Assembly (NCBI GenBank): GCA_030628225.1
Contig: DAOVRJ010000034.1
Span: 1-14,578 of the forward strand
DNA length: 14,578 nucleotides
Source of the DNA: Candidatus Zixiibacteriota bacterium
GTDB lineage: Bacteria; SM23-81
Direction of reading: 5' to 3'
A program made the position numbers and the translations under genes. The notes below the pieces were generated by a model. The model saw nothing but the letters and a program-made list of their open reading frames with translations. It did not search any database and was not told where the DNA came from. Positions 859 to 14,578 of this stretch are shown one piece after another (the first letter of the stretch is position 1; each line of letters begins with the position of its first letter).

Positions 859-927
859 ACGCTTGGACAACACTGTTGACCGGCACATTGGATGGACATC
901 ACGGATAATCTCGGCAGGGAGGATTCG

Positions 928-3372
928 ATGTTTCCACAACGATTTACGATCATGCTAGTCATCCTCTTCGGGCTCTTGGCCTCAGCGGCCCGGGCAGGGG
1001 ATTTGAGCGGGCTGAAGTTCTGTCTTGACCCGGGGCACGGCGCCTATCCCACCATCAAACCCTTCGAGACCATCATCAACATGAAGGTTGGCTTCTATCT
1101 CCAGGAATATCTGGAGTCGGCCAACGTGGACACGGCCATCCTCACCCGTACCGACAACATCCAGAACCCCTCCCTCACCGAGCGGGAGTACATCGCCAAC
1201 TCCAACAATGTGGACTGGTTCAACTCTATTCATCACAACGCATTTCAGGGGACCAGCAATTACACGCTTGTGCTCTACGAAGAGCTCTCCGGTGGGCAGC
1301 CCCAATGGCCGGAGGCGGTGACCATGAGCGAGATCATGGCCGACGACCTCTGGCATGCTCTGCGCACCACCACCTGGTACGCCCGCGGCGACCGGAGTTT
1401 CCTCGGGTTTAACCTGGGAGTGTTGAACGATCTGCAGATGCCAGGGGAGCTCACCGAGGCTTCCTTCTTCGACTACACCGCCGAGAAGAACCGGCTGCGC
1501 AACGACGACTATCTGAAAATGGAGGCCAGGGCCCTGTTCACATCTTTTCTGGATTACTACGACGCCGATCCCCTGGTTACTGGAAACCTCTCCGGGATCG
1601 TCTCCGATGAGGAAACGGAAGAGCCTGTCAACGGGGTGACCTGCACCCTGTGGCCGGATAGTCTGGTATACGCCACCGATGACTCGGCCAACGGCCTGTT
1701 CGTTTTCGATGATCTGGCCCCGGGCACCTACTCGGTGACCGTTGAGAAGGGGGGCTACAACGCGGAAATCGACAGTCTGACGGTCAACGCCAACAGCTTT
1801 GACCGTCTGGACTTTGAGCTGGTCAACGAATTACCGCCCACGGTGGTGAGCACGGTCCCCGATTCCGGGGATACCGCGGTCTTCGTGTTCGGGAACATTC
1901 AGGTGACCTTCAGCCGGACCATGGACCAGCCCACCACCGAGGCTGCTTTCCTAATCCTTCCCGACGCTGGTGGTACCTTCAGCTGGGATGCAAACAAAAA
2001 ACAGCTATCCTTCGATCCCCACGATTACCTGCAGGCGTCCACGGACTATCAGGTGACCATCGACTCGACGGCGCGGGACATCTACGGCCATTATTTCGAC
2101 GGCGATGGCGATGGCGTCGAGGGTGATCCCTATATCTTCAGCTTTCGAACCGCGCGGCTGGACACCACCGGTCCCTCGGTTGTTTTGACCGCGCCGGCCG
2201 ACGGCGCCTTGGACGTCCCGGTGGATGTGGCCATTTCCGCGGAATTCGACGAGTTTCTCGATCCCGCCACCATCATCCCGCAAAATGTGATCCTCAGGGA
2301 CGCCGCCTCCGTGCCCGTGGCCCGAAGCTATGACTACCAGGAACTGGACACACACGGGATCCTGTTCATCTACCCCACCAATTCGCTCAATCCCGGCGAA
2401 ACATACACCGTGACCCTGAACACCGGATTGCAGGATCTGTTCCTAAATAACCTCGATCAAAGCTACGAGTGGTCCTTCACCACCAGCGCCCAGTCATACG
2501 AGTTCACCACCATCGACGATTTCGACGATGGAACCAGCCCCTGGTGGGACCCCGAGGGCAGCGGCAGCACCGCCGGTACCATCGCCGACAGCACCACTTT
2601 CCTGGCCGACACCGCGGTGGTCAATCCCGGCACCGGGAGCACCGCCTCCGGCCGGTTGAAGTACGAATGGAACACCTCGAGCAGCGACTGGCTGATCCGT
2701 GTCTATTTCCCTCCCCCCTCCTCGGATGCTGTCCATTTCGACACCACCTATGCCCTGCAGGTCTACCTTTACGGTGACGGCAGCAATAACAAGTTCCGCT
2801 TCTGCGTGGACGACCATCTGCCCTCTACCCACGCCGACTATCACGAGGTGAGCGAGTGGGTGACCATCGACTGGGTGGGCTGGCGGCTGGTCCAGTGGGA
2901 TCTGGGCTCAGACTCGGTGGGAAGCTGGATCGGCAACGGGATATTAGAGGGCACCATGCGGGTGGATAGCTTTCAGATGACCTATAATAATGAGGGCGGA
3001 GCGGCCAAAGGGACCATCTACCTGGACGATCTCCGGCTGGCCAGGGCTGTGACCGGCGTGCAGGACCCAGGGGTGACGGTCCAGGCGATGCCAGCCGGCT
3101 TCCAGCTCAATCAGAACTACCCTAATCCCTTCAACCCCGAGACCAGCATCCGCTACTGGCTTCCGGAAGGGGGCCGTGTCCACCTGCGAATCTTCAATGT
3201 AACGGGGCAAACGGTGAGAGGCCTGGTGGACGAAAACCAGCCGGCAGGAACCTATGCTGTCCGCTGGGATGGACGGGACGATCGTGGCCTACCCGTGGCC
3301 AGCGGGGTGTATTTCTGTCATCTGCAGACCGGCCGGTTTTCCAAAAGCTGCAAGATGACCCTTATGCGTTGA
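928..3372 (+). CDS. Secreted N-acetylmuramoyl-L-alanine amidase (Amidase_3) with Ig-like, CBM-like and sorting domains
   Basis: Predicted zinc amidase that cleaves the bond between MurNAc and the stem peptide of peptidoglycan; 814 residues from ATG 928. The frame is open from 892, but ATG 928 has a strong ribosome binding site (AGGGAGGA, about 917-924) and begins a signal peptide (hydrophobic residues 8-18, A-R-A|G cleavage near 23). In the Amidase_3 domain (about 28-215) the zinc ligands H37 (DPGHG), E47 and H102 (SIHHNA) and the catalytic E177 (LTEASF) are all present. Then follow a carboxypeptidase-regulatory-like domain (about 219-298), two Big_5 Ig-like domains (about 302-410 and 414-520), the first with an acidic DGDGDGVEGD loop that could bind calcium, a beta-rich carbohydrate-binding-like region beginning T-I-D-D-F-D-D-G (about 527-707), and a sorting domain (about 725-814). 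It is far longer than a housekeeping Ami protein because of these surface domains. It may act on its own wall, in remodelling, or on other cells' walls; the sequence does not decide. Confidence 0.88.
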   Translation: MFPQRFTIMLVILFGLLASAARAGDLSGLKFCLDPGHGAYPTIKPFETIINMKVGFYLQEYLESANVDTAILTRTDNIQNPSLTEREYIANSNNVDWFNSIHHNAFQGTSNYTLVLYEELSGGQPQWPEAVTMSEIMADDLWHALRTTTWYARGDRSFLGFNLGVLNDLQMPGELTEASFFDYTAEKNRLRNDDYLKMEARALFTSFLDYYDADPLVTGNLSGIVSDEETEEPVNGVTCTLWPDSLVYATDDSANGLFVFDDLAPGTYSVTVEKGGYNAEIDSLTVNANSFDRLDFELVNELPPTVVSTVPDSGDTAVFVFGNIQVTFSRTMDQPTTEAAFLILPDAGGTFSWDANKKQLSFDPHDYLQASTDYQVTIDSTARDIYGHYFDGDGDGVEGDPYIFSFRTARLDTTGPSVVLTAPADGALDVPVDVAISAEFDEFLDPATIIPQNVILRDAASVPVARSYDYQELDTHGILFIYPTNSLNPGETYTVTLNTGLQDLFLNNLDQSYEWSFTTSAQSYEFTTIDDFDDGTSPWWDPEGSGSTAGTIADSTTFLADTAVVNPGTGSTASGRLKYEWNTSSSDWLIRVYFPPPSSDAVHFDTTYALQVYLYGDGSNNKFRFCVDDHLPSTHADYHEVSEWVTIDWVGWRLVQWDLGSDSVGSWIGNGILEGTMRVDSFQMTYNNEGGAAKGTIYLDDLRLARAVTGVQDPGVTVQAMPAGFQLNQNYPNPFNPETSIRYWLPEGGRVHLRIFNVTGQTVRGLVDENQPAGTYAVRWDGRDDRGLPVASGVYFCHLQTGRFSKSCKMTLMR

Positions 3373-4295: not shown

Positions 4296-4316
4296 ACTTA
4301 AAAAGGACGGTTGCCC

Positions 4317-6611
4317 ATGAACATCACTCATCCCACTAGCGGTTCTGTCTGTCTGGCTCTTCTGATCATCCCCATCCTGCTCACCTCCTGCGCCATCATC
4401 GGCGGCAGACCCAGAGGCGTTGGACTTGCCGGAAAAACCATCGTTCTGGACCCGGGCCACGGGGGCGAACAATTAGGGGCCGTGGGCCTGAACGGACTGG
4501 AGGAGAAAACCCCCAACCTGGACGTCAGCAAAAAGCTAAAGAAGATGCTGGAGAAGGACGGGGCCAAGGTGTATCTCACCCGCCAGCAAGACGACCAGAC
4601 GGTGTCCCTGAAAGACCGCGTGACCTTCACCAAAAAGAAGAAGGCCGATCTGTTCGTCTCCCTGCACCACAATGCCAATGCTCAGGTAGACCGGACCACC
4701 GACCGCTCGGAGCTCTATTACTCCTGGTGGAGCGACGGCCCATCCCGGGACGTGGCCAACCAGCTCTACTCTTCCTTTCACAAACATATCGGGCTACCCC
4801 AGCTACCCGTCCGGCCGGCCATCTACTATGTCACCAAACATAACGATGAGCCCTGTGTTCTGGGCGAGCCGTCGTATCTCAGCAATCCCGAGAGGGAGGC
4901 CAAGTTGAAAACCGAAAGCCATCAACAAGAAGAGGCTGAGGCTTACTACGAGGGAATCAAAAATTACTTCGACGGGGGCATTCCGCGGACCGAGGAGCTT
5001 CAGATCAACGATGATGTGACCGAGACAGGGATGCTGACCGTTCAGGCCACCATCCTGGATGAGCAGGGCGGTTCGGGCATCGATCCGGCGACCATCGAGC
5101 TGAAGATCGATGACCAACCCCTCCCCCACCACTTCGATCACGGGACGGGGAAATTGACGGCTGCCTCCCCACAGCCCCTGGCCAGCGGCCGGCACACTTT
5201 ATCTCTCATGGCCCGCAACCGGCGGGGCAACGCCACCAGCCCGGCCCGGAAAGAGTTCACTGTGACCATACCGCCGGCCACACTGCAACTGGCTTGCGCG
5301 CCCAGCTGGGCTCCTGTCAAGGGAGCATTTGGCATCCAGGTTCGGGTTTCGGTCACGGACAAAAACGGAAACCCGGCAGCCGACGGCAGCAAAGTCTCTT
5401 TTGTCACCGACCGGGGCACGCCCGGCTCCTCAGAGGATAGCACCACGGGAGGGCGTGCCGGAACCTACCTGACGGTGAAAGACCCCCGGGGGAAAGCGCT
5501 CATCTTTGCCACCTGCGGAAACCTTTACGACCGCGTGGAGGTTCAGTTCGACTCCACCTGCAGCTCTCTGGTCACCGGTACCGTCACCAACGGCCAGGAT
5601 GGTCCTCCCCTGGCCGGGGCCTGGGTTAAACTGGGCGACCGGATGGTCCGCACCGATGAGAACGGCCATTTTCTATTCGAGGATGTGAAGTCAGAACCTC
5701 ATCCTCTGCGGGTGCAGTGTCCTGGTTATCGGAGCCATGAGGATAAGCTCAGGATCAGAAAAAAGACCGGACTGAACCAGAATATCGTTCTGCAGCCCCT
5801 GTACGGCGGTCTGCTTGTGGACAAATCGGTGGCCATAGATGCCGAGGGCGGCGGGGATGAGCCCGCGGCCGTGGGACCGGCAGGTCTGAAGGCCTCGGAC
5901 GTCAACCTGCGGGTGGCCCAGTACCTTCGCGAATATCTGACGGCAGCCGGTGCCACCGTCCACATGACCCGCACCCGGTTCGTCGAAACCCTGGACCCGG
6001 TGGTCAGAACACGTTTTATCCGCGACCTCAAGCCCCACAAGATGATCTCCATCTCCCACAGTAACCCTTACATGGATAAGGACGGCTCGCGCTGCTTCCA
6101 TTTCTATACCGACAAGGAGGGCGGAGCTCTGGCCCAGAAAATCCAGAAGCACCTGGTCTCTTATCTGGGCACACCCGATCTGGGCGTTGCCGAGTGGTCC
6201 TCATATTTGATGATCGAGGCTTACGTGGACCGGACACTGGTGACCCCCACGGTAGTCACAGATCCCACAGCGGAGCATAGGTTAAAGGACCCGGTTTATC
6301 TGCGCCGCGAGGCTTATGCCATCTTCTGCGGTTTGCTGGAGGATTTCGGCCTGCAGGTGACAGCCACCGGGACCATCGCTGGAACCATCACCGACGGGAA
6401 GAACAAGGCCATCGAGGGTGCCCTGGTGATCCTGGATGACGCCTTCGTTCAGCAAACGGGACCCGACGGCGCCTACCGGTTCGTCTGCGTAGAACCGGGC
6501 ACCAGGACCATCTCCGTCCACCGAAGCGGCTACACATCCACAAAGCAAACCCTTAAAGTGGCTCAGAATCAAGAGGCCAGCGGGAGCTTTCAGATGGCCG
6601 AGAAAAAGTGA
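4317..6611 (+). CDS. Lipoprotein with tandem Amidase_3 domains, the second catalytically dead
   Basis: 764 residues from ATG 4317, chosen because AAGGA (4303-4307) lies 9 bases upstream; the in-frame TTG 4311 is too close. A lipoprotein signal ends in the lipobox L22-T-S-C25, so the mature protein should be membrane-anchored and act in the periplasm or at the surface. The first Amidase_3 domain (about 38-225) keeps zinc ligands H48, E63 and H117 and catalytic E184, so it should hydrolyse peptidoglycan amide bonds. An Ig-like region (about 230-320), a Big_1-like domain (about 322-415) and a carboxypeptidase-regulatory-like domain (about 418-495) follow. The second Amidase_3 fold (about 497-690) aligns well but has G511, A526, S580 and D649 at the four catalytic positions. 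A last regulatory-like domain spans about 692-764. The dead copy may bind wall or regulate the first. No sorting domain is present. Confidence 0.9.
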   Translation: MNITHPTSGSVCLALLIIPILLTSCAIIGGRPRGVGLAGKTIVLDPGHGGEQLGAVGLNGLEEKTPNLDVSKKLKKMLEKDGAKVYLTRQQDDQTVSLKDRVTFTKKKKADLFVSLHHNANAQVDRTTDRSELYYSWWSDGPSRDVANQLYSSFHKHIGLPQLPVRPAIYYVTKHNDEPCVLGEPSYLSNPEREAKLKTESHQQEEAEAYYEGIKNYFDGGIPRTEELQINDDVTETGMLTVQATILDEQGGSGIDPATIELKIDDQPLPHHFDHGTGKLTAASPQPLASGRHTLSLMARNRRGNATSPARKEFTVTIPPATLQLACAPSWAPVKGAFGIQVRVSVTDKNGNPAADGSKVSFVTDRGTPGSSEDSTTGGRAGTYLTVKDPRGKALIFATCGNLYDRVEVQFDSTCSSLVTGTVTNGQDGPPLAGAWVKLGDRMVRTDENGHFLFEDVKSEPHPLRVQCPGYRSHEDKLRIRKKTGLNQNIVLQPLYGGLLVDKSVAIDAEGGGDEPAAVGPAGLKASDVNLRVAQYLREYLTAAGATVHMTRTRFVETLDPVVRTRFIRDLKPHKMISISHSNPYMDKDGSRCFHFYTDKEGGALAQKIQKHLVSYLGTPDLGVAEWSSYLMIEAYVDRTLVTPTVVTDPTAEHRLKDPVYLRREAYAIFCGLLEDFGLQVTATGTIAGTITDGKNKAIEGALVILDDAFVQQTGPDGAYRFVCVEPGTRTISVHRSGYTSTKQTLKVAQNQEASGSFQMAEKK
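5805..6386 (+). other. Pseudo-amidase domain within the lipoprotein
   Basis: This segment encodes residues about 497-690. It retains the fold signatures 'NLRVAQYLREYL ... GATVHMTRTR' and an I-S-I-S-H-S-N strand, but D-P-G-H-G-G of the active domain became D-A-E-G-G-G. By hand alignment the replacements are H48 to G511, E63 to A526, H117 to S580 and E184 to D649. All are in frame and the surrounding code is intact, so this is a diverged domain rather than a decaying gene. Confidence 0.75.
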
Positions 6612-7482: not shown

Positions 7483-7522
7483 CGCCAGGTAAAAGTGCTG
7501 CCCATTTGGGGAGGCGAACAAG

Positions 7523-10500
7523 ATGAAAGATGAAAAAAAGACCAAGAAGCAACTCATCAAGGAATTGATGGGGTTGCGCAAAGAGCTTTCCAAGCTGCTA
7601 AAGCCGGAAACCGGCCACAAACGAACCAAGCAGGCGCCCGGGGAAAGCGAGCAAGGCTTCAGAGCTCTGGCAGAAAATGCCAACGACGGCATCCTGATAT
7701 CCACGGACACAGGCCTCTATGTTTACGCGAACAGGCGGGCCGCCGAGATAACCGGCTATACCATCCCGGAACTGCTCAAGATGAGCATAAAGGATCTGAC
7801 GCATCCGGCTGAAACCAAAAAGGTGACGGAAAGACACAGAAAAAGACTCAAGGACAAGCCCACTCCCCGGCAGTATGAGACCGTCATCGTCCGAAAAGAC
7901 GGCACAAGCGTGTCCATAGAGATAACCACAGCCAAGACTACCTGGCAGGGGCAACCCGCCGGTTTGGCCATCTTCCGCGACAGCACCGAGCGCAAGCAGG
8001 CCGAGGAGAAACAACGGGAAACCGAAGAAAAGTACCGTGTGCTGTTTGAGACGGCTAAAGACGCCGTATTCCTGTTTGATGAGGCGGGGAGGTTCGTGGA
8101 TGTCAATCGGGCGGCCTGCGAATCGCTCGGCTATAGCAAAGAGGAATTGTTAAAACTGAGCAACAAGGAGATTGACGCCGATCACAGGGGATACGAAGCG
8201 TTCATAAAAGTTCGGGAAGGACAATTGAAGGGAATGACGTTCGAAGTAAACCAGCGGAGGAAAGACGGAACGCTCGTACCCGTGGAGATCACTGGAAGTT
8301 TCTTCACCAGTGGCGATCAATTACTCTCTCTGGCGATTGCTCGCGACATCACCGAGCGCAAGCGAGCCGAGGAGGAGTTGAAAAAACACCGGGATCGGCT
8401 TGAGGAGCTGGTAGAAGAACGCACAACTGAACTCAAAAAGACAAACGAGCAACTGAAACGTGAAATAGAAGAGCACAAATGGGCTGAGGAAGGGTTGCGG
8501 GAGAGTGAAGAAAGGTTTCGTAATCTAACGGAACACATTCCAGGAATATCTATACAAGGATATAAAATTGACGGAACGGTCATTTATTGGAACAAAGCAA
8601 GCGAGGAAGTTTACGGTTACACGGCCCACGAAGCGCTGGGGAAAAATCTTGGTGATCTGATCATTCCACCGGACTTAATGCCACTTTTCAAAGAATCTCT
8701 TAAGTTGGGAAGAATGGTGAAGAAATCCGGAGAGTTTCTTCAATCTGGTGAATTGATGTTACTGCATAAAAAAGGCCATCTAGTCCCTGTATTCTCAATA
8801 CATACGGCTGTCTATATTGAGGGTAAAGAGCCTATACTCTTTTGTATTGATGTTGATTTGTCAGAGCGAAAAAGAGCAGAGGAAGAACTGAAAAACTCGC
8901 AGGAGCGTCTGCAGATAATGTTCGAATACGCACCGGAAGCTTACTTTTTGATCGACGAAGAGGGAGTTTTTGTTGATTGCAACCGGGCCACAGAAGACAT
9001 CAGCGGTTATACAAAGCAAGAATTGATCGGAAAGAACTTCTTGGAATTGAATCTCATCCCGCCAGAGGAGCAGTCCAAAGCAACTACCCTGCTGGCCGAA
9101 AGCGTTATAAGGCAACCCGTGGGCCCGATCGAATTTACCGCCAATCGAAAAGATGGCAGCCAGGTCGCCCTGGAGATCAGCGCATTTCCAGTGGAGATCA
9201 AGGGTCAAACCCTGGCCTTGACCATCGCCCGCGACATCACCGATCACAAGCTGGCCGAGGAGGAAATAAGGGTCAGCGAAGAGCGTTTTCGCAACACCTT
9301 CGAGCAGGCTGCCGTGGGAATCACGCATGAGACGCCGGATGGGAAATTTCTGAGGATCAACCGGCGGTTCAGCGAGATCGTCGGATACACGCGGGAGGAA
9401 CTGCGCGCGCTCACGTTCCGGGACATCACTCATCCCGACGACCTTGATACTGATCTCGAGTATATGCGTAAGATTCTGGCCGGTGAAATTTCAACATACT
9501 CGATGGAGAAACGCTACATCCATAAGGACGGTTTTACCATATGGGTAAACATGACCGTGTCTTTGGTGCGCGATCCGGCGGGCGAACCGAGCTACTTCAT
9601 CTCCGTTGTGGAAGACATCTCCGAGCGCAAAGCGGTGGAAGAAGAGCTGATCCGCTCGGAGGACAGGCTGAAGATACTCTTCGAATACGCGCCGGAAGGG
9701 TATTATCTGACCGATCTAGAGGGCAACTTCGTTGATGGCAACAGAGCCGCAGAACAGATCAGCGGTTATTCTAAGCAAGAGCTGATCGGAAAAAGCGCTT
9801 TGAAATCGAAACTCATCCCGGCAGAGGAAATTCCGAAAGTGGCTGCCCTGATGGCCAAGAATGCTCAGGGGCAGCCCACCGGCCCGACAGAGATCATCAT
9901 AAATCGGAGAGATGGCAGTCCGGTTAAATTGGAGATCAGCTCATTTCCAGTGGAGATCGAAGGTCAAACTCTGGTTTTAAACGTCGCCCACGACATCACC
10001 GAGCGCAAACGGGCAGAGACGGTTCAACGGGTGTTGTATCAAATTTCCAACGCAGTGCACACAACCGAGGACCTCCCGGAGCTGTTTGGAGTAATTCGTC
10101 AGGAGCTGAGCGCCATTCTGGACACCGAGAATTTCTATATCGCCCTCTATAATAAAGAAAACGACACCATCTCTCTCCCCTACTTTGAAGATGAAAAGGA
10201 CCGGTTCGAGACCTTCCCCGCCGGGAAGACGCTCACCGCATACGTTATCAAGAACGACAGACCACTTCTGGCCACCTGGGAACAGACCGAGGAGCTGATC
10301 CGGTCCGGCCAGGTGGATACCTTCGGAACACCCTCAAAGGTGTGGCTGGGAGTTCCTCTGAAAGCAAGGGGCGAGATAATCGGCGTCCTGGCGCTTCAGA
10401 GCTACAAGGATGAGGCTGCCTTTGATGAAAAGGATCTGGATATCCTGAAATTCGTGTCCAGCCAGATCGGGCTGTCCATCGAGCGCAAGCGGACTCAGGA

Positions 10501-13500
10501 GACGCTGCTGGAAAGCGAGGAGACGGCACGGGCACTGCTGAACGCACCCTTGGATTCGTCAATACTGATGGATACCAAGGGAATCATCCTGGCCATGAAC
10601 GAAATCGCGGCCAGAAGATTCGGTAAACCTCTGGACGAGTTAATCGGAGCATGCGGTTATGACATCGGCATCGCTCCCCCCGATGTGGTCAAATTTAGAA
10701 GAGCACAAATTGGCAAGGTCATTCGCACTGGTAAACCCGTTCGCTTCGAGGATGAGCGTGAGGGAATCATTTTTGACACCGGCATCTACCCCGTCTTCGA
10801 CGCGCGAGGAAAGGTTGCACGCTTAGCAATCTTTGGCCGCGACATCACCGAACGCAAGCGGCAGGAATTGCAATCCAAAATGAGGGCACAGCTTTTAGAT
10901 AAGTTGCGGGGCGTCAAAAGTATAGACGCCTGTCTGCAATTAGGCTGCCAGGCAATCCGCGATGCCGGACTGTTTGAGCGAGCGGTATTGACCCTGAACG
11001 ATGAAAAATTCGTCATCACACATCTCGGCCAGGTGGGTTTGGACCCGAAAATCGTCAAACAGGCCCGCAACGCGTCTCCGCCTGATGATGATCTAAGGAA
11101 AAGGATGATGCAGAAAGAGTTCCAGATAAGCCACTCTTTCTTTATTCCCCAAGAAGCCACGGTGGATTTCGCAAGAACAAGCCGATATGTACCTCAGCAA
11201 AAAGGGCAGAGCACAACAAACAATTCTTGGAAACCTGGCGATGAGCTGTTCGTGCCCATCATCGGCAAAGAGGGCTCGACAGAGGGATATCTTTCTGCCG
11301 ACACCCCAATGAACGGAAAGCGGCCGGACCGGGAAAGCATCCTTTTTCTGGAAGACATCGTCGACATCGTCGCCCGGCAAACACATGAAATTCAGAACAT
11401 GATGAACTTGCAGAAGAGCGAGGAGAAGTTCCGAACCCTGTCAGAGGAGATCGCTGATGGCGTTGCTGTTACTGTTGATGGCAAATACTACTGGGTAAAC
11501 CAGGCCTTTTCGGAGATATTCGGATACACGAAGGAGGAGCTGATCGGCAGGGGAGTGGATTTCCTGATAGTGCCCGAAGAAATCCCCTCGTTGACCCAGC
11601 GGATGAAAAATCGTCTGGCCGGAAAGCAAGTCCTCTCCCGCTACGAAAGCGTAGCCAAACGGAAGAACGGCAAAAGGATCGACATCGCGGTTTCGGCAAA
11701 GAAAATAATTTTCGAGGACAAACAGGCCATTCAATTGGTGATCAGGGACATCACCGAGCGAAAACAGGCGGAGCAGACTAACCGCCGTCTCGCCGAAATT
11801 GTTCGCAATGCCAGCGATGGCGTGGTTCTCACCGACCCGCTGGGCCGGACGCTTTACGTCAACCCTGCTTTTGAAAAGATGAACGGCCATGTGCAGAGCG
11901 AGCTGCTGGATCAGGACCCGGTGGATCTGATCGTCACGGATGATAAAACCGCCATCGCCAATGAGATACGCACTGCGGTCAGAACAAAGGACGAGTGGGC
12001 AGGAGACTTGCTTTGCCGTCGCAAGAGTGGTGAAATCTATCCTATTGAAAGCCGGGTCTTTGCTATCCGAAACGCAAAGGGCGATCTCGTGGAGATAGCG
12101 GCCATCCAACAGGACATCTCCGATCGCAAGCAAGCGGAGCAGGCGCTGCGTAAGAGCGAGGAGAAACACCGCACGCTCATTGAGACTTTAACCGATATCG
12201 TCTTTACTTTGGATAAGGAGGGAAAGTTCACATATCTTAGCCCAAGAATTGAGGAGGTTACTGGCTTCCCTGGCCAGGATTTTATCGGACATCCTTTCAC
12301 TGAAATCATTGCCCCGGAATACATAGATTCAACGGTTGACCGCTTCAGACGGGGGCTTGCTGGCGAAAAGATCCCACTTTACGAGATCGAGCTTTTGCGT
12401 AAAGATGGCAAAAAGGTCCCCATAGAATTAAATGTGAGCTCACTTTTGGATGCTGAGGGCCAGGTCATCGGCAGGATCGGTACCGCCCGCGACATCACCG
12501 AGCGCAAACAGGCGCAGGAAACCTTGCGGTTGTTCTCCAGGGCCGTTGACAGTTCAGTTGATGGCATAGCCATGGGCAACTTAGAGAACAGGATCGCCTA
12601 TGCGAACGATGCATTTGTCAGAATGTTTGGCTATTCCAGGGAAGAGCTGATGGGCAAGAAGATTCACTCCCTCTACTCCAAGGATCAGATGCTAAAGCTG
12701 AAGGATGCCCTTAAAACGACGTTGGAAGGTGGCTGGACAGGAGAACTGGTTGCCAGAAGAAAGAACGGTGAATTCTTTCCAATTCTGATCTCCTCTTCAA
12801 GAGTGTTGGATGATGAGGGAAAAACTGTTGCCCAGATGGCCAGTCACCTGGATATCACCGAGCGCAAACAGGCGGAAGAGACCCTGCGGGAGTCGGAGGA
12901 GAAGTTCCGGGATATCGCCGAAAACGTCTCCGATATGATATTCAGAACGGATACCAATGGCCGCGTTACCTACATGTCCCCCGCTGTCGAAGATATAGCC
13001 GGATACCGGCCCGAGGAATGTGTCGGCAAGCTCTTCCACGTCTTCGTGAAAAAGAGAGATATTCCCCGAGCTATTGTCAGCTTCTCCGGAACGTTAAAGG
13101 GCAAGAAAGTCCGGGCTCTGCAATTGGACATGCTCAGAAAAGACAAAACTGTATTTCCGGCTGAGTTGTCGGAGACGCCCATTACCAAAAACGGAAAAAT
13201 AATCGGAACTCAGGGAATCATCGGAGACATCAGCGGCCGTGTACGGTCGACTGCGCAATTGGAGAAATCCGAAGAGAAATACAGAAAAATAGTAGAGCTG
13301 GCCCCCGATGGCATCATCACCCTGGACCGGGAAGGGGTGGTGAAATCCTGCAATACCGCTTTTCTGAAGCGGTTCGGCATCTCCGAAGACGACATTCTCG
13401 ACTTGCACTTCTTCAAAAGCCCACGTGTGCCGGAAAAGGATCGTGCAAGATATCACAAGATGTTCAATTCCATCATGAGCGGCAAAGCTCCGAAACCATT

Positions 13501-14578
13501 TGAGATCGAATGGAAGGATAAGAATGGAAACACCCGTTTCGTGGAAATTCACGTGAATCTGATTAAAAAAGGCCGCACGAAAACTGGCCTTCAGGCCATC
13601 GTCAGAGACATCACCGAGCGCAAGCGAGCGGAGGCAGTTCAACGAACGCTGCATCGAATTGCCGACGCGGTCCACACCACCGAGGACCTGCCCGGACTGT
13701 ATAAGGTGATTCACGGTGAGCTCGGCCTTATTTTGAAGATCAAGAATCTGGCCATCGCCCTATACGACAGAGAAAGAGACATGCTCTTAGTTGAGTACCA
13801 CGTGGATAAGAAGGACCGGTTCGAAGGGGTTGTTCCTGCCGGAAAAACGCTCACGGCTTATGTCATCAAAAATGACAAACCCCTTCTTGTGACGCACAGG
13901 AAAATTAAACAGATGGTCCGGGCCGGCCAGGTAAAACCCATTGGAGCGCCCACAAAGATCTGGTTGGGGGTTCCTCTGAAAGCAAGGAACAAAACAATCG
14001 GTGCTCTCGTGATTAACGATTACACTGATGAGAACGCCTATGATGAAAAAGACCTGGCGCTCTTGCAACTTGTGTCCGGTCAGATAGCACTTACCATCGA
14101 GCGCAAGCGAGCGGAGGAGGAGCTGAGGGAGAGTGAGGAAAAGTTCAGGGCCATAAGCTCTTCGGCCCAGGATGCCGTTGCTATGATGGACAACGAAGGA
14201 AATGTTACCTTCTGGAACGAGGCGGCAGAGAAAATGTTCGGCTATTCGCAACAGGAGATACTGGGCAAGGAGCTGCATATCATTCTGGCACCACAGCGCT
14301 ATCACGAAGCATATAAAAGGGGATTCAAACAATTCAGGAGGACAGGACGAGGATCTGCAGTTGGAAGGACACTCGAATTTACGACCATCAAAAAAGACGG
14401 GACCGAGTTTCCCGTGGAGCTGTCCATGTCGGCGGTGAAGGTGAAGGGCAAATGGAATGCCATCGGCATCATCCGCGACATCACCGAGCGCAAGAGAGCC
14501 GAGGAGGCTCTGCACAGAGAAGAGCTGCAATATCGCACCACCATCGATTCTATGGGCGAGGCGATACACGTAGTAGAC
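7523..14578 (+). CDS. Giant multi-PAS/GAF sensor protein (3' end outside window)
   Basis: Open for 2352 codons with no stop at the window edge. The start is ATG 7523, with GGGGAGG 8 bases upstream. A basic, coiled-coil-like N-terminus (1-45) is followed by PAS1 46-160, PAS2 171-286, coiled coil 287-331, PAS3 332-456, PAS4 463-582, PAS5 589-709, PAS6 716-833, GAF1 834-995, PAS7 996-1116, a GAF-like domain 1117-1298, PAS8 1299-1418, PAS9 1419-1542, PAS10 1543-1668, PAS11 1669-1788, PAS12 1789-1913, PAS13 1914-2038, GAF3 2039-2201, PAS14 2202-2330 and the start of PAS15. Most PAS units show N-x-A, a G-Y/F-x-x-x-E-L stretch, a K-D/N-G turn and a D-I-T/S-E-R-K end. No transmembrane segment or LOV-type cysteine motif was seen, so it should be cytoplasmic. 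Such proteins usually end in a histidine kinase, GGDEF or similar output, not visible here. Ligands cannot be assigned. Confidence 0.93.
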   Translation, partial: MKDEKKTKKQLIKELMGLRKELSKLLKPETGHKRTKQAPGESEQGFRALAENANDGILISTDTGLYVYANRRAAEITGYTIPELLKMSIKDLTHPAETKKVTERHRKRLKDKPTPRQYETVIVRKDGTSVSIEITTAKTTWQGQPAGLAIFRDSTERKQAEEKQRETEEKYRVLFETAKDAVFLFDEAGRFVDVNRAACESLGYSKEELLKLSNKEIDADHRGYEAFIKVREGQLKGMTFEVNQRRKDGTLVPVEITGSFFTSGDQLLSLAIARDITERKRAEEELKKHRDRLEELVEERTTELKKTNEQLKREIEEHKWAEEGLRESEERFRNLTEHIPGISIQGYKIDGTVIYWNKASEEVYGYTAHEALGKNLGDLIIPPDLMPLFKESLKLGRMVKKSGEFLQSGELMLLHKKGHLVPVFSIHTAVYIEGKEPILFCIDVDLSERKRAEEELKNSQERLQIMFEYAPEAYFLIDEEGVFVDCNRATEDISGYTKQELIGKNFLELNLIPPEEQSKATTLLAESVIRQPVGPIEFTANRKDGSQVALEISAFPVEIKGQTLALTIARDITDHKLAEEEIRVSEERFRNTFEQAAVGITHETPDGKFLRINRRFSEIVGYTREELRALTFRDITHPDDLDTDLEYMRKILAGEISTYSMEKRYIHKDGFTIWVNMTVSLVRDPAGEPSYFISVVEDISERKAVEEELIRSEDRLKILFEYAPEGYYLTDLEGNFVDGNRAAEQISGYSKQELIGKSALKSKLIPAEEIPKVAALMAKNAQGQPTGPTEIIINRRDGSPVKLEISSFPVEIEGQTLVLNVAHDITERKRAETVQRVLYQISNAVHTTEDLPELFGVIRQELSAILDTENFYIALYNKENDTISLPYFEDEKDRFETFPAGKTLTAYVIKNDRPLLATWEQTEELIRSGQVDTFGTPSKVWLGVPLKARGEIIGVLALQSYKDEAAFDEKDLDILKFVSSQIGLSIERKRTQETLLESEETARALLNAPLDSSILMDTKGIILAMNEIAARRFGKPLDELIGACGYDIGIAPPDVVKFRRAQIGKVIRTGKPVRFEDEREGIIFDTGIYPVFDARGKVARLAIFGRDITERKRQELQSKMRAQLLDKLRGVKSIDACLQLGCQAIRDAGLFERAVLTLNDEKFVITHLGQVGLDPKIVKQARNASPPDDDLRKRMMQKEFQISHSFFIPQEATVDFARTSRYVPQQKGQSTTNNSWKPGDELFVPIIGKEGSTEGYLSADTPMNGKRPDRESILFLEDIVDIVARQTHEIQNMMNLQKSEEKFRTLSEEIADGVAVTVDGKYYWVNQAFSEIFGYTKEELIGRGVDFLIVPEEIPSLTQRMKNRLAGKQVLSRYESVAKRKNGKRIDIAVSAKKIIFEDKQAIQLVIRDITERKQAEQTNRRLAEIVRNASDGVVLTDPLGRTLYVNPAFEKMNGHVQSELLDQDPVDLIVTDDKTAIANEIRTAVRTKDEWAGDLLCRRKSGEIYPIESRVFAIRNAKGDLVEIAAIQQDISDRKQAEQALRKSEEKHRTLIETLTDIVFTLDKEGKFTYLSPRIEEVTGFPGQDFIGHPFTEIIAPEYIDSTVDRFRRGLAGEKIPLYEIELLRKDGKKVPIELNVSSLLDAEGQVIGRIGTARDITERKQAQETLRLFSRAVDSSVDGIAMGNLENRIAYANDAFVRMFGYSREELMGKKIHSLYSKDQMLKLKDALKTTLEGGWTGELVARRKNGEFFPILISSSRVLDDEGKTVAQMASHLDITERKQAEETLRESEEKFRDIAENVSDMIFRTDTNGRVTYMSPAVEDIAGYRPEECVGKLFHVFVKKRDIPRAIVSFSGTLKGKKVRALQLDMLRKDKTVFPAELSETPITKNGKIIGTQGIIGDISGRVRSTAQLEKSEEKYRKIVELAPDGIITLDREGVVKSCNTAFLKRFGISEDDILDLHFFKSPRVPEKDRARYHKMFNSIMSGKAPKPFEIEWKDKNGNTRFVEIHVNLIKKGRTKTGLQAIVRDITERKRAEAVQRTLHRIADAVHTTEDLPGLYKVIHGELGLILKIKNLAIALYDRERDMLLVEYHVDKKDRFEGVVPAGKTLTAYVIKNDKPLLVTHRKIKQMVRAGQVKPIGAPTKIWLGVPLKARNKTIGALVINDYTDENAYDEKDLALLQLVSGQIALTIERKRAEEELRESEEKFRAISSSAQDAVAMMDNEGNVTFWNEAAEKMFGYSQQEILGKELHIILAPQRYHEAYKRGFKQFRRTGRGSAVGRTLEFTTIKKDGTEFPVELSMSAVKVKGKWNAIGIIRDITERKRAEEALHREELQYRTTIDSMGEAIHVVD
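8909..10021 (+). repeat. Duplicated PAS units (PAS4 and PAS6) flanking PAS5
   Basis: PAS4 (8909-9268) and PAS6 (9668-10021) are about 60% identical by hand alignment, far closer to each other than to the PAS units around them. Shared stretches include F-E-Y-A-P-E, 'KQELIGK', 'FPVEI.GQTL' and N-R-x-D-G-S. PAS5 between them is of a different type (H-P-D-D, E-x-R-Y-x-x-K-D-G). This suggests duplication of a PAS unit, or of a two-PAS block, inside the gene. Confidence 0.75.
10022..10507 (+). repeat. GAF domain 1, paralogous to the GAF domain at 13637-14125
   Basis: Begins 'VQRVLYQISNAVHTTEDLP' and contains 'PAGKTLTAYVIKND', 'WLGVPLKAR' and 'SIERKR'. The domain at 13637-14125 has the same landmarks in the same order, with over half the residues identical by eye. 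Both follow a PAS unit ending D-I-T-E-R-K-R-A-E, so a PAS-GAF block was probably duplicated. GAF domains bind small ligands or cofactors; none can be assigned. Confidence 0.75.
10871..11416 (+). other. Divergent GAF-like domain
   Basis: Residues about 1117-1298 lie between PAS7 and PAS8 and have no PAS landmarks. They contain R-A-V-L-T-L, an 'ISHSFFIP' motif, 'WKPGDELFVPI', 'GYLSADTP.NGKRPD' and a final helix 'LEDIVDIVARQTHEI'. This combination resembles a GAF-like class found in multi-PAS kinases, in which a 'SYFIP' motif precedes 'GD.L.VP' and 'GY.S.D.P'. It differs clearly from GAF1 and GAF3. The family is assigned from memory of its motifs, not from a profile search. Confidence 0.5.
13637..14125 (+). 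repeat. GAF domain 3, paralogous to GAF domain 1
   Basis: Begins 'VQRTLHRIADAVHTTEDLP' and repeats 'PAGKTLTAYVIKND' and 'WLGVPLKAR' exactly as in GAF1 (10022-10507). The DNA also keeps identical stretches, such as GTTCCTCTGAAAGCAAGG, in both copies. It separates PAS13 from PAS14. Confidence 0.75.

Follow-up and report, generated by a model that had tools for sequence, protein, structure and literature searches.

A long PAS/GAF sensor array, most likely of a histidine kinase, truncated by a contig end in Candidatus Zixiibacteriota

Introduction

What kind of protein is encoded by a frame that strings PAS domain after PAS domain and then reaches the end of its DNA before any output domain appears? 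The question is raised by the second half of the window, by which we mean the whole 14,578-nucleotide stretch that was analyzed here. This stretch corresponds to the whole of contig C127, one of the 306 contigs in a draft genome of approximately 2.34 Mb. As argued below, the frame is likely to encode the sensory part of a single cytoplasmic multi-sensor protein of very large size, with only the C-terminal end missing; this protein is most likely a histidine kinase and possibly a hybrid one.

Results

Open reading frame and N-terminus

Positions 7523–14578 form a single unbroken frame of 2352 codons, from the ATG at 7523 through the last base of the contig, as had been claimed from the sequence earlier. 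The chance of that many stop-free codons, at the frame's own base composition, is about 10^-50, and the codon-position composition is steady all along the frame. The leader of the protein (Table 1) recurs in related form, with the pattern MKxxKKTK...ELxxLRxxI, at the start of two adjacent sensor genes on contig C85 of the same genome (PAS-PAS-GAF-GGDEF and PAS-GAF-PAS-HisKA) and of a same-family relative in G001:C22 (PAS-GAF-HD-GYP). Because of this recurring leader and the ribosome-binding site in front of the ATG, the N-terminus looks complete.

The highest mean hydropathy of any 19-residue segment (Kyte-Doolittle) was 1.37 in the visible protein, which was the part covered by the scan, and therefore this part contains no transmembrane helix of the kind that marks membrane-bound sensor kinases. 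Of the "soluble hub" in the original prediction, the hydropathy analysis thus supports the solubility; the hub is conjecture.

Domain content

Fourteen full PAS domains and three GAF domains are encoded in the frame, which also includes the beginning (approximately 20 residues) of a 15th PAS domain; this agrees with the earlier count. The TIGR00229 model (PAS S-box) matched 14 stretches of the protein (1123.6 bits) and PAS_9 matched 13, with units above the curated score, and the predicted structure of PAS9–PAS11 described below is consistent with the assignment. Fourteen C-terminal motifs of the D-I-T type were present, and an alignment of 14 rows confirmed every unit. PAS15 is represented by its start only, LQYRTTIDSMGEAIHVVD, the final 20-odd residues of the visible protein.

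Two GAF domains were detected by Pfam. The third GAF-like stretch, at residues ~1125–1295, gave no Pfam match at E<=1, but two of its relatives matched GAF (E-values of 1.7e-9 and 3.2e-6), and the top Foldseek matches of its AlphaFold2 model (pLDDT 77.6) were mostly GAF-domain structures. Thus, homologues and predicted fold together confirm this stretch as a divergent GAF domain below the detection level of Pfam. GAF3 is 56% identical to the GAF domain encoded on C85, to which GAF1 is more similar (Table 1).

Table 1. Features of the array gene, in positions of the window and residues (aa) of the encoded protein.
Feature	Positions	Strand	Residues	Basis or remark
GGAGG ribosome-binding site	7510..7514	+		8 bases 5' of ATG; read directly in sequence
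Open frame, 2352 codons	7523..14578	+		ORF reading; 3' end cut by contig end
N-terminal leader MKDEKKTKKQLIKELMGLRKELSKLL..., helical cap	7523..7654	+		common to sensors with differing outputs
PAS1	7655..7996	+	45-158	TIGR00229/PAS models, alignment
PAS2	8015..8362	+	165-280	TIGR00229/PAS models, alignment
Long coiled-coil linker PAS2-PAS3	8363..8494	+		linker measurement; spacing 57, not 18
PAS3	8495..8872	+	325-450	75% identical to PAS of G037 hybrid kinase
PAS4	8888..9250	+	456-576	61% identical to PAS6; internal duplication
PAS5	9266..9631	+	582-703	61-64% identical to PAS units of cyanobacteria and Anaerolineae
PAS6	9647..10009	+	709-829	alignment
GAF1	10025..10492	+	835-990	Pfam; 69% identical to GAF of own-genome C85 kinase
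PAS7, divergent	10505..10858	+	995-1112	Pfam PAS scan, alignment
GAF2, divergent	10895..11407	+	~1125-1295	homologues and predicted fold
PAS8	11411..11764	+	1297-1414	Pfam PAS scan, alignment
PAS9	11768..12130	+	1416-1536	Trp1492 aligned with Trp of FAD-type MmoS
PAS10	12146..12508	+	1542-1662	alignment, model
PAS11	12512..12868	+	1664-1782	Trp1738 aligned with FAD-type Trp of NifL, MmoS
PAS12	12884..13243	+	1788-1907	Pfam PAS scan, alignment
PAS13	13259..13624	+	1913-2034	Pfam PAS scan, alignment
GAF3, paralogue of GAF1	13640..14107	+	2040-2195	GAF1-containing stretch 69% identical in DNA
PAS14, FixL/DosP type	14123..14494	+	2201-2324	Tyr2264 at FixL heme His position
Start of PAS15	14510..14578	+	2330-2352	broken off by contig end

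Soundness of the assembly

An array of repeated domains could be chimeric, or show a wrong number of units, through misassembly. The source is a draft metagenome-assembled genome of 306 contigs, and its three PAS-rich genes (on C127, C85 and C168) all reach contig ends. However, the longest exact DNA repeat within the frame is 23 bases, with none of 25 bases or more, and pairs of PAS units share 19–38% of their residues, the exception being PAS4 and PAS6 at 61%. Collapse or expansion of repeats by the assembler is unlikely, judged from this divergence and from the shortness of the exact repeats. The codon positions are also alike throughout the frame, and the PAS6-GAF1 junction was found again in C85 and in G001. 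A misassembled array is thus very improbable, and the earlier concern about an artefact is lowered by the lack of long exact repeats.

Helical linkers between PAS units

Linker spacing was counted between the D of the D-I-T motif and the start of the PAS domain that follows. Among the 11 direct PAS-PAS linkers of the array, the spacing was 18 residues in eight, 14 in two and 57 in one. These are the three commonest spacings among 198 distinct linkers from 80 other loci (L043-L122), where 18 residues accounted for 81%. In that set, 193 linkers differed from 18 by 0, 3 or 4 modulo 7, as did 33 of the 38 linkers with a spacing other than 18; as related linkers are not independent events, these numbers describe a pattern rather than a probability. 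Strict heptad phasing, with differences of 7n only, was rejected because offsets of 3 and 4 also occur; these are compatible with a-to-d shifts. Across the phyla represented by the 80 loci, the spacings were strongly quantized, at 18, 14, 57, 11 and 25 residues.

In a predicted structure of PAS9-PAS10-PAS11, each PAS strand enters one unbroken helix that continues to the next PAS domain; the model is a monomer with high local confidence (pLDDT 90.6) and a poorly determined relative placement of the domains (pTM 0.50). Its best two-domain matches were the tandem PAS domains of dimeric FixL (TM 0.75–0.79 on the target) and DosP, and domain pairs also superposed on MmoS. The N-terminal part of the protein is thus a tandem PAS/GAF array whose helical linkers are phased, a feature of multi-sensor histidine kinases.

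Such PAS linkers have been described as parallel coiled coils, and the engineered kinase YHF integrates two inputs through one of them; tandem PAS proteins have been proposed to integrate their inputs by means of helical linkers in regular phase (PMC6798134). The original prediction offered a choice between a protein that integrates very many inputs and a long rod in which most units transmit. Since phased helical linkers are themselves the proposed means of integration, this either/or is probably false. The long rod is probably correct, given the linkers and the PAS9-PAS11 model; its exclusion of the integrator is not upheld. On our best reading, the protein would be a mechanically coupled rod formed by a dimer; some of its units would sense and all would transmit. 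The dimer and the flow of the signal are suggested by these comparisons.

Units that may sense

The PAS11 domain aligns with NifL and MmoS, with Trp1738 falling on their tryptophan, and PAS9 aligns with MmoS, with Trp1492 at the corresponding position. FAD-PAS domains are chiefly recognized by this tryptophan (PMC10468136), which lies in helix F and which both units have at the aligned position. PAS11 and PAS9 are therefore the best candidates for flavin binding, based on single aligned residues.

PAS14 is closest to FixL and DosP, and was for this similarity considered as a heme-based O2 sensor. The heme histidine of FixL aligns with Tyr2264 in comparison with both FixL sequences, and this function was rejected as the default; a unit in G037 that is 64–66% identical to PAS14 keeps the histidine. 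A LOV photosensor was likewise rejected, as the conserved cysteine (NCRFLQ) is missing and no NCRF motif occurs in the protein.

Relatives with 56–75% identity were found in other proteins for PAS3, PAS5, PAS14 and both Pfam-detected GAF domains, as compared to approximately 28–51% for the remaining units in the same sample. This contrast could separate sensors from transmitters, but we regard it as only a lead.

The missing 3' end and the likely output domain

As noted earlier from the sequence, no output domain has appeared when the frame ends. Since the window spans the entire contig, the 3' part of the gene is missing from PAS15 onwards, and the absence of an output domain is an effect of the contig end. 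The output domain sought in the original prediction was not recovered in the bin. The last 129 bases of the contig overlapped with no other contig of the bin, and searches of its 306 contigs with PAS, HisKA, HATPase_c and GGDEF models revealed none that starts with the rest of PAS15. Two 5'-truncated kinases were rejected as continuations of a frame that breaks inside PAS15: the one on C241 has a transmembrane start, and the one on C68 starts inside a GAF domain.

The C68 fragment (L124) continues as GAF-HisKA-HATPase and is accompanied by a REC-GGDEF gene. On contig C168 of the same genome (G000), a frame to position 10461 (L017) encodes four PAS domains and ends inside the start of a GAF domain. 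C168 and C68 may carry the two halves of one kinase gene.

No orthologue with a known output was found among 60 relatives, and no full-length orthologue among four genomes of the same phylum. The outputs behind relatives of single modules were GGDEF or HisKA (C85), HD-GYP (G001:C22) and HisKA-HATPase-REC (G037). With modules shuffled among different outputs, orthology cannot name the output of the array. We therefore turn to frames that are 3'-complete and contain five or more PAS domains; 35 distinct ones were present in the loci fetched through the array protein itself, a sample thus biased towards its relatives. A kinase ends 28 of them (19 by motif, nine by Pfam), GGDEF ends one, and six have no identified output, one of these six having been covered by the Pfam scan. 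The own-genome C85 gene whose GAF domain is 69% identical to GAF1 runs PAS-GAF-PAS-HisKA, and among the PAS proteins of bacteria, kinases are the most frequent (PMC10468136). Because 28 of the 35 complete arrays end in a kinase, a histidine kinase, possibly a hybrid one, is the most likely output.

A c-di-GMP enzyme (GGDEF, EAL or HD-GYP) in this position is suggested by the own-genome gene that shares the leader and ends in GGDEF, and by the closest same-family relative of PAS6-GAF1, which ends in HD-GYP. We consider it unlikely, given the single GGDEF end against the 28 kinases. The frame could also stop soon past PAS15 with no output, either as a broken gene or as a scaffold or split kinase acting in trans. 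Some array frames elsewhere indeed lack an output past the last PAS or GAF domain (L107, L064, L067), but they make up a minority of the arrays and could stem from frameshifts in draft assemblies, and the 2352 codons here are intact with steady codon statistics and no visible decay. Such an ending is decidedly improbable. The L107 example (12638-18514) is a Chloroflexi frame of 1959 residues with at least seven PAS domains, the last 517 residues of which contain GAF only before the stop; it is possibly an output-less array or a frameshift.

We give little credence to a broader alternative, in which several more PAS domains follow, making this the longest known bacterial PAS array, or in which the protein is an output-less scaffold rod that serves separate kinases in trans. 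The sensory part of a large histidine kinase is our preferred explanation.

Neighboring genes

Upstream of the array gene, there are genes for two secreted cell-wall amidases (Amidase_3) at positions 892-3372 and 4311-6611 of the window; the proteins also carry Ig-like or carboxypeptidase-regulatory domains. The 892-3372 amidase has a shortened motif (DPGHGAYPT...) and a lower Pfam score than the 4311-6611 amidase (DPGHGGEQLGAVG); its C-terminus is a sorting tail of the FlgD-Ig / type-IX-like kind. Positions 1-858 encode the 3' part of a Golvesin_C protein with a C-terminal tail of the same type (NYPNPFN...FlgD-Ig), as known from lineages that have a type-IX-like sorting signal. No RNA families were found within the window.

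Discussion

We propose that the protein forms a parallel dimer, with its two chains next to each other. Binding of small molecules or redox cofactors in some of the PAS and GAF pockets, with flavin in PAS11 and PAS9 as the best candidates, would cause a shift in the dimer. This shift would travel along the rod, through the phased helical linkers, to an output domain past the contig end. Units with no obvious ligand would mainly transmit. The array may have grown by internal duplication, as for PAS4/PAS6 and GAF1/GAF3, and by acquisition of modules from other sensors.

PAS proteins contain on average two PAS domains each, in agreement with the prediction that such sensors usually have far fewer units, and up to 19 in cyanobacterial kinases (PMC10468136); soluble kinases of Phytophthora contain 10, 15 and 21 (PMC3019232). 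The array is near the top of the known range yet within it: unusually long, but precedented and of an ordinary kind. The cyanobacterial multi-PAS histidine kinases (<=19 PAS, for example UniProt A0A1Z4MZL8; Xing, Gumerov and Zhulin 2023, PMC10468136) likewise place a very long array in one bacterial protein, but there the kinase domain is seen, whereas the array described here lacks its C-terminus and is interspersed with three GAF domains. The Phytophthora kinases share the absence of transmembrane domains and a tandem PAS array of similar size, but are eukaryotic and of known output, and GAF is said to be absent from oomycete kinases (PMC3019232). A Chloroflexi protein (L044, JACPVB010000065.1; 2853 residues, approximately 10 PAS, at least three GAF, HisKA-HATPase-REC) is likewise mixed and of comparable length, but complete and with fewer PAS domains. 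The fetched loci also included a Beggiatoa protein with approximately 11 PAS domains, a kinase and a receiver, and one with 12 PAS domains and a kinase (L048). Single units resemble known sensors: PAS14 is similar to FixL and DosP but lacks the heme histidine (Tyr2264), the tandem geometry is that of dimeric FixL, and PAS9 and PAS11 are similar to MmoS and NifL. These four proteins have one or a few PAS domains each, as compared to 14 full ones here.

The quantized spacings could help delimit signaling-helix phases in general. If the array is real in full, one soluble protein holds 14 of the 26 PAS units found by the Pfam scan in a genome of approximately 2.3 Mb. It would then be a natural system in which to ask how many sensor units can act on a single output through a coiled-coil rod, and which of the units sense and which only transmit; the linker statistics offer a simple quantitative approach to this.
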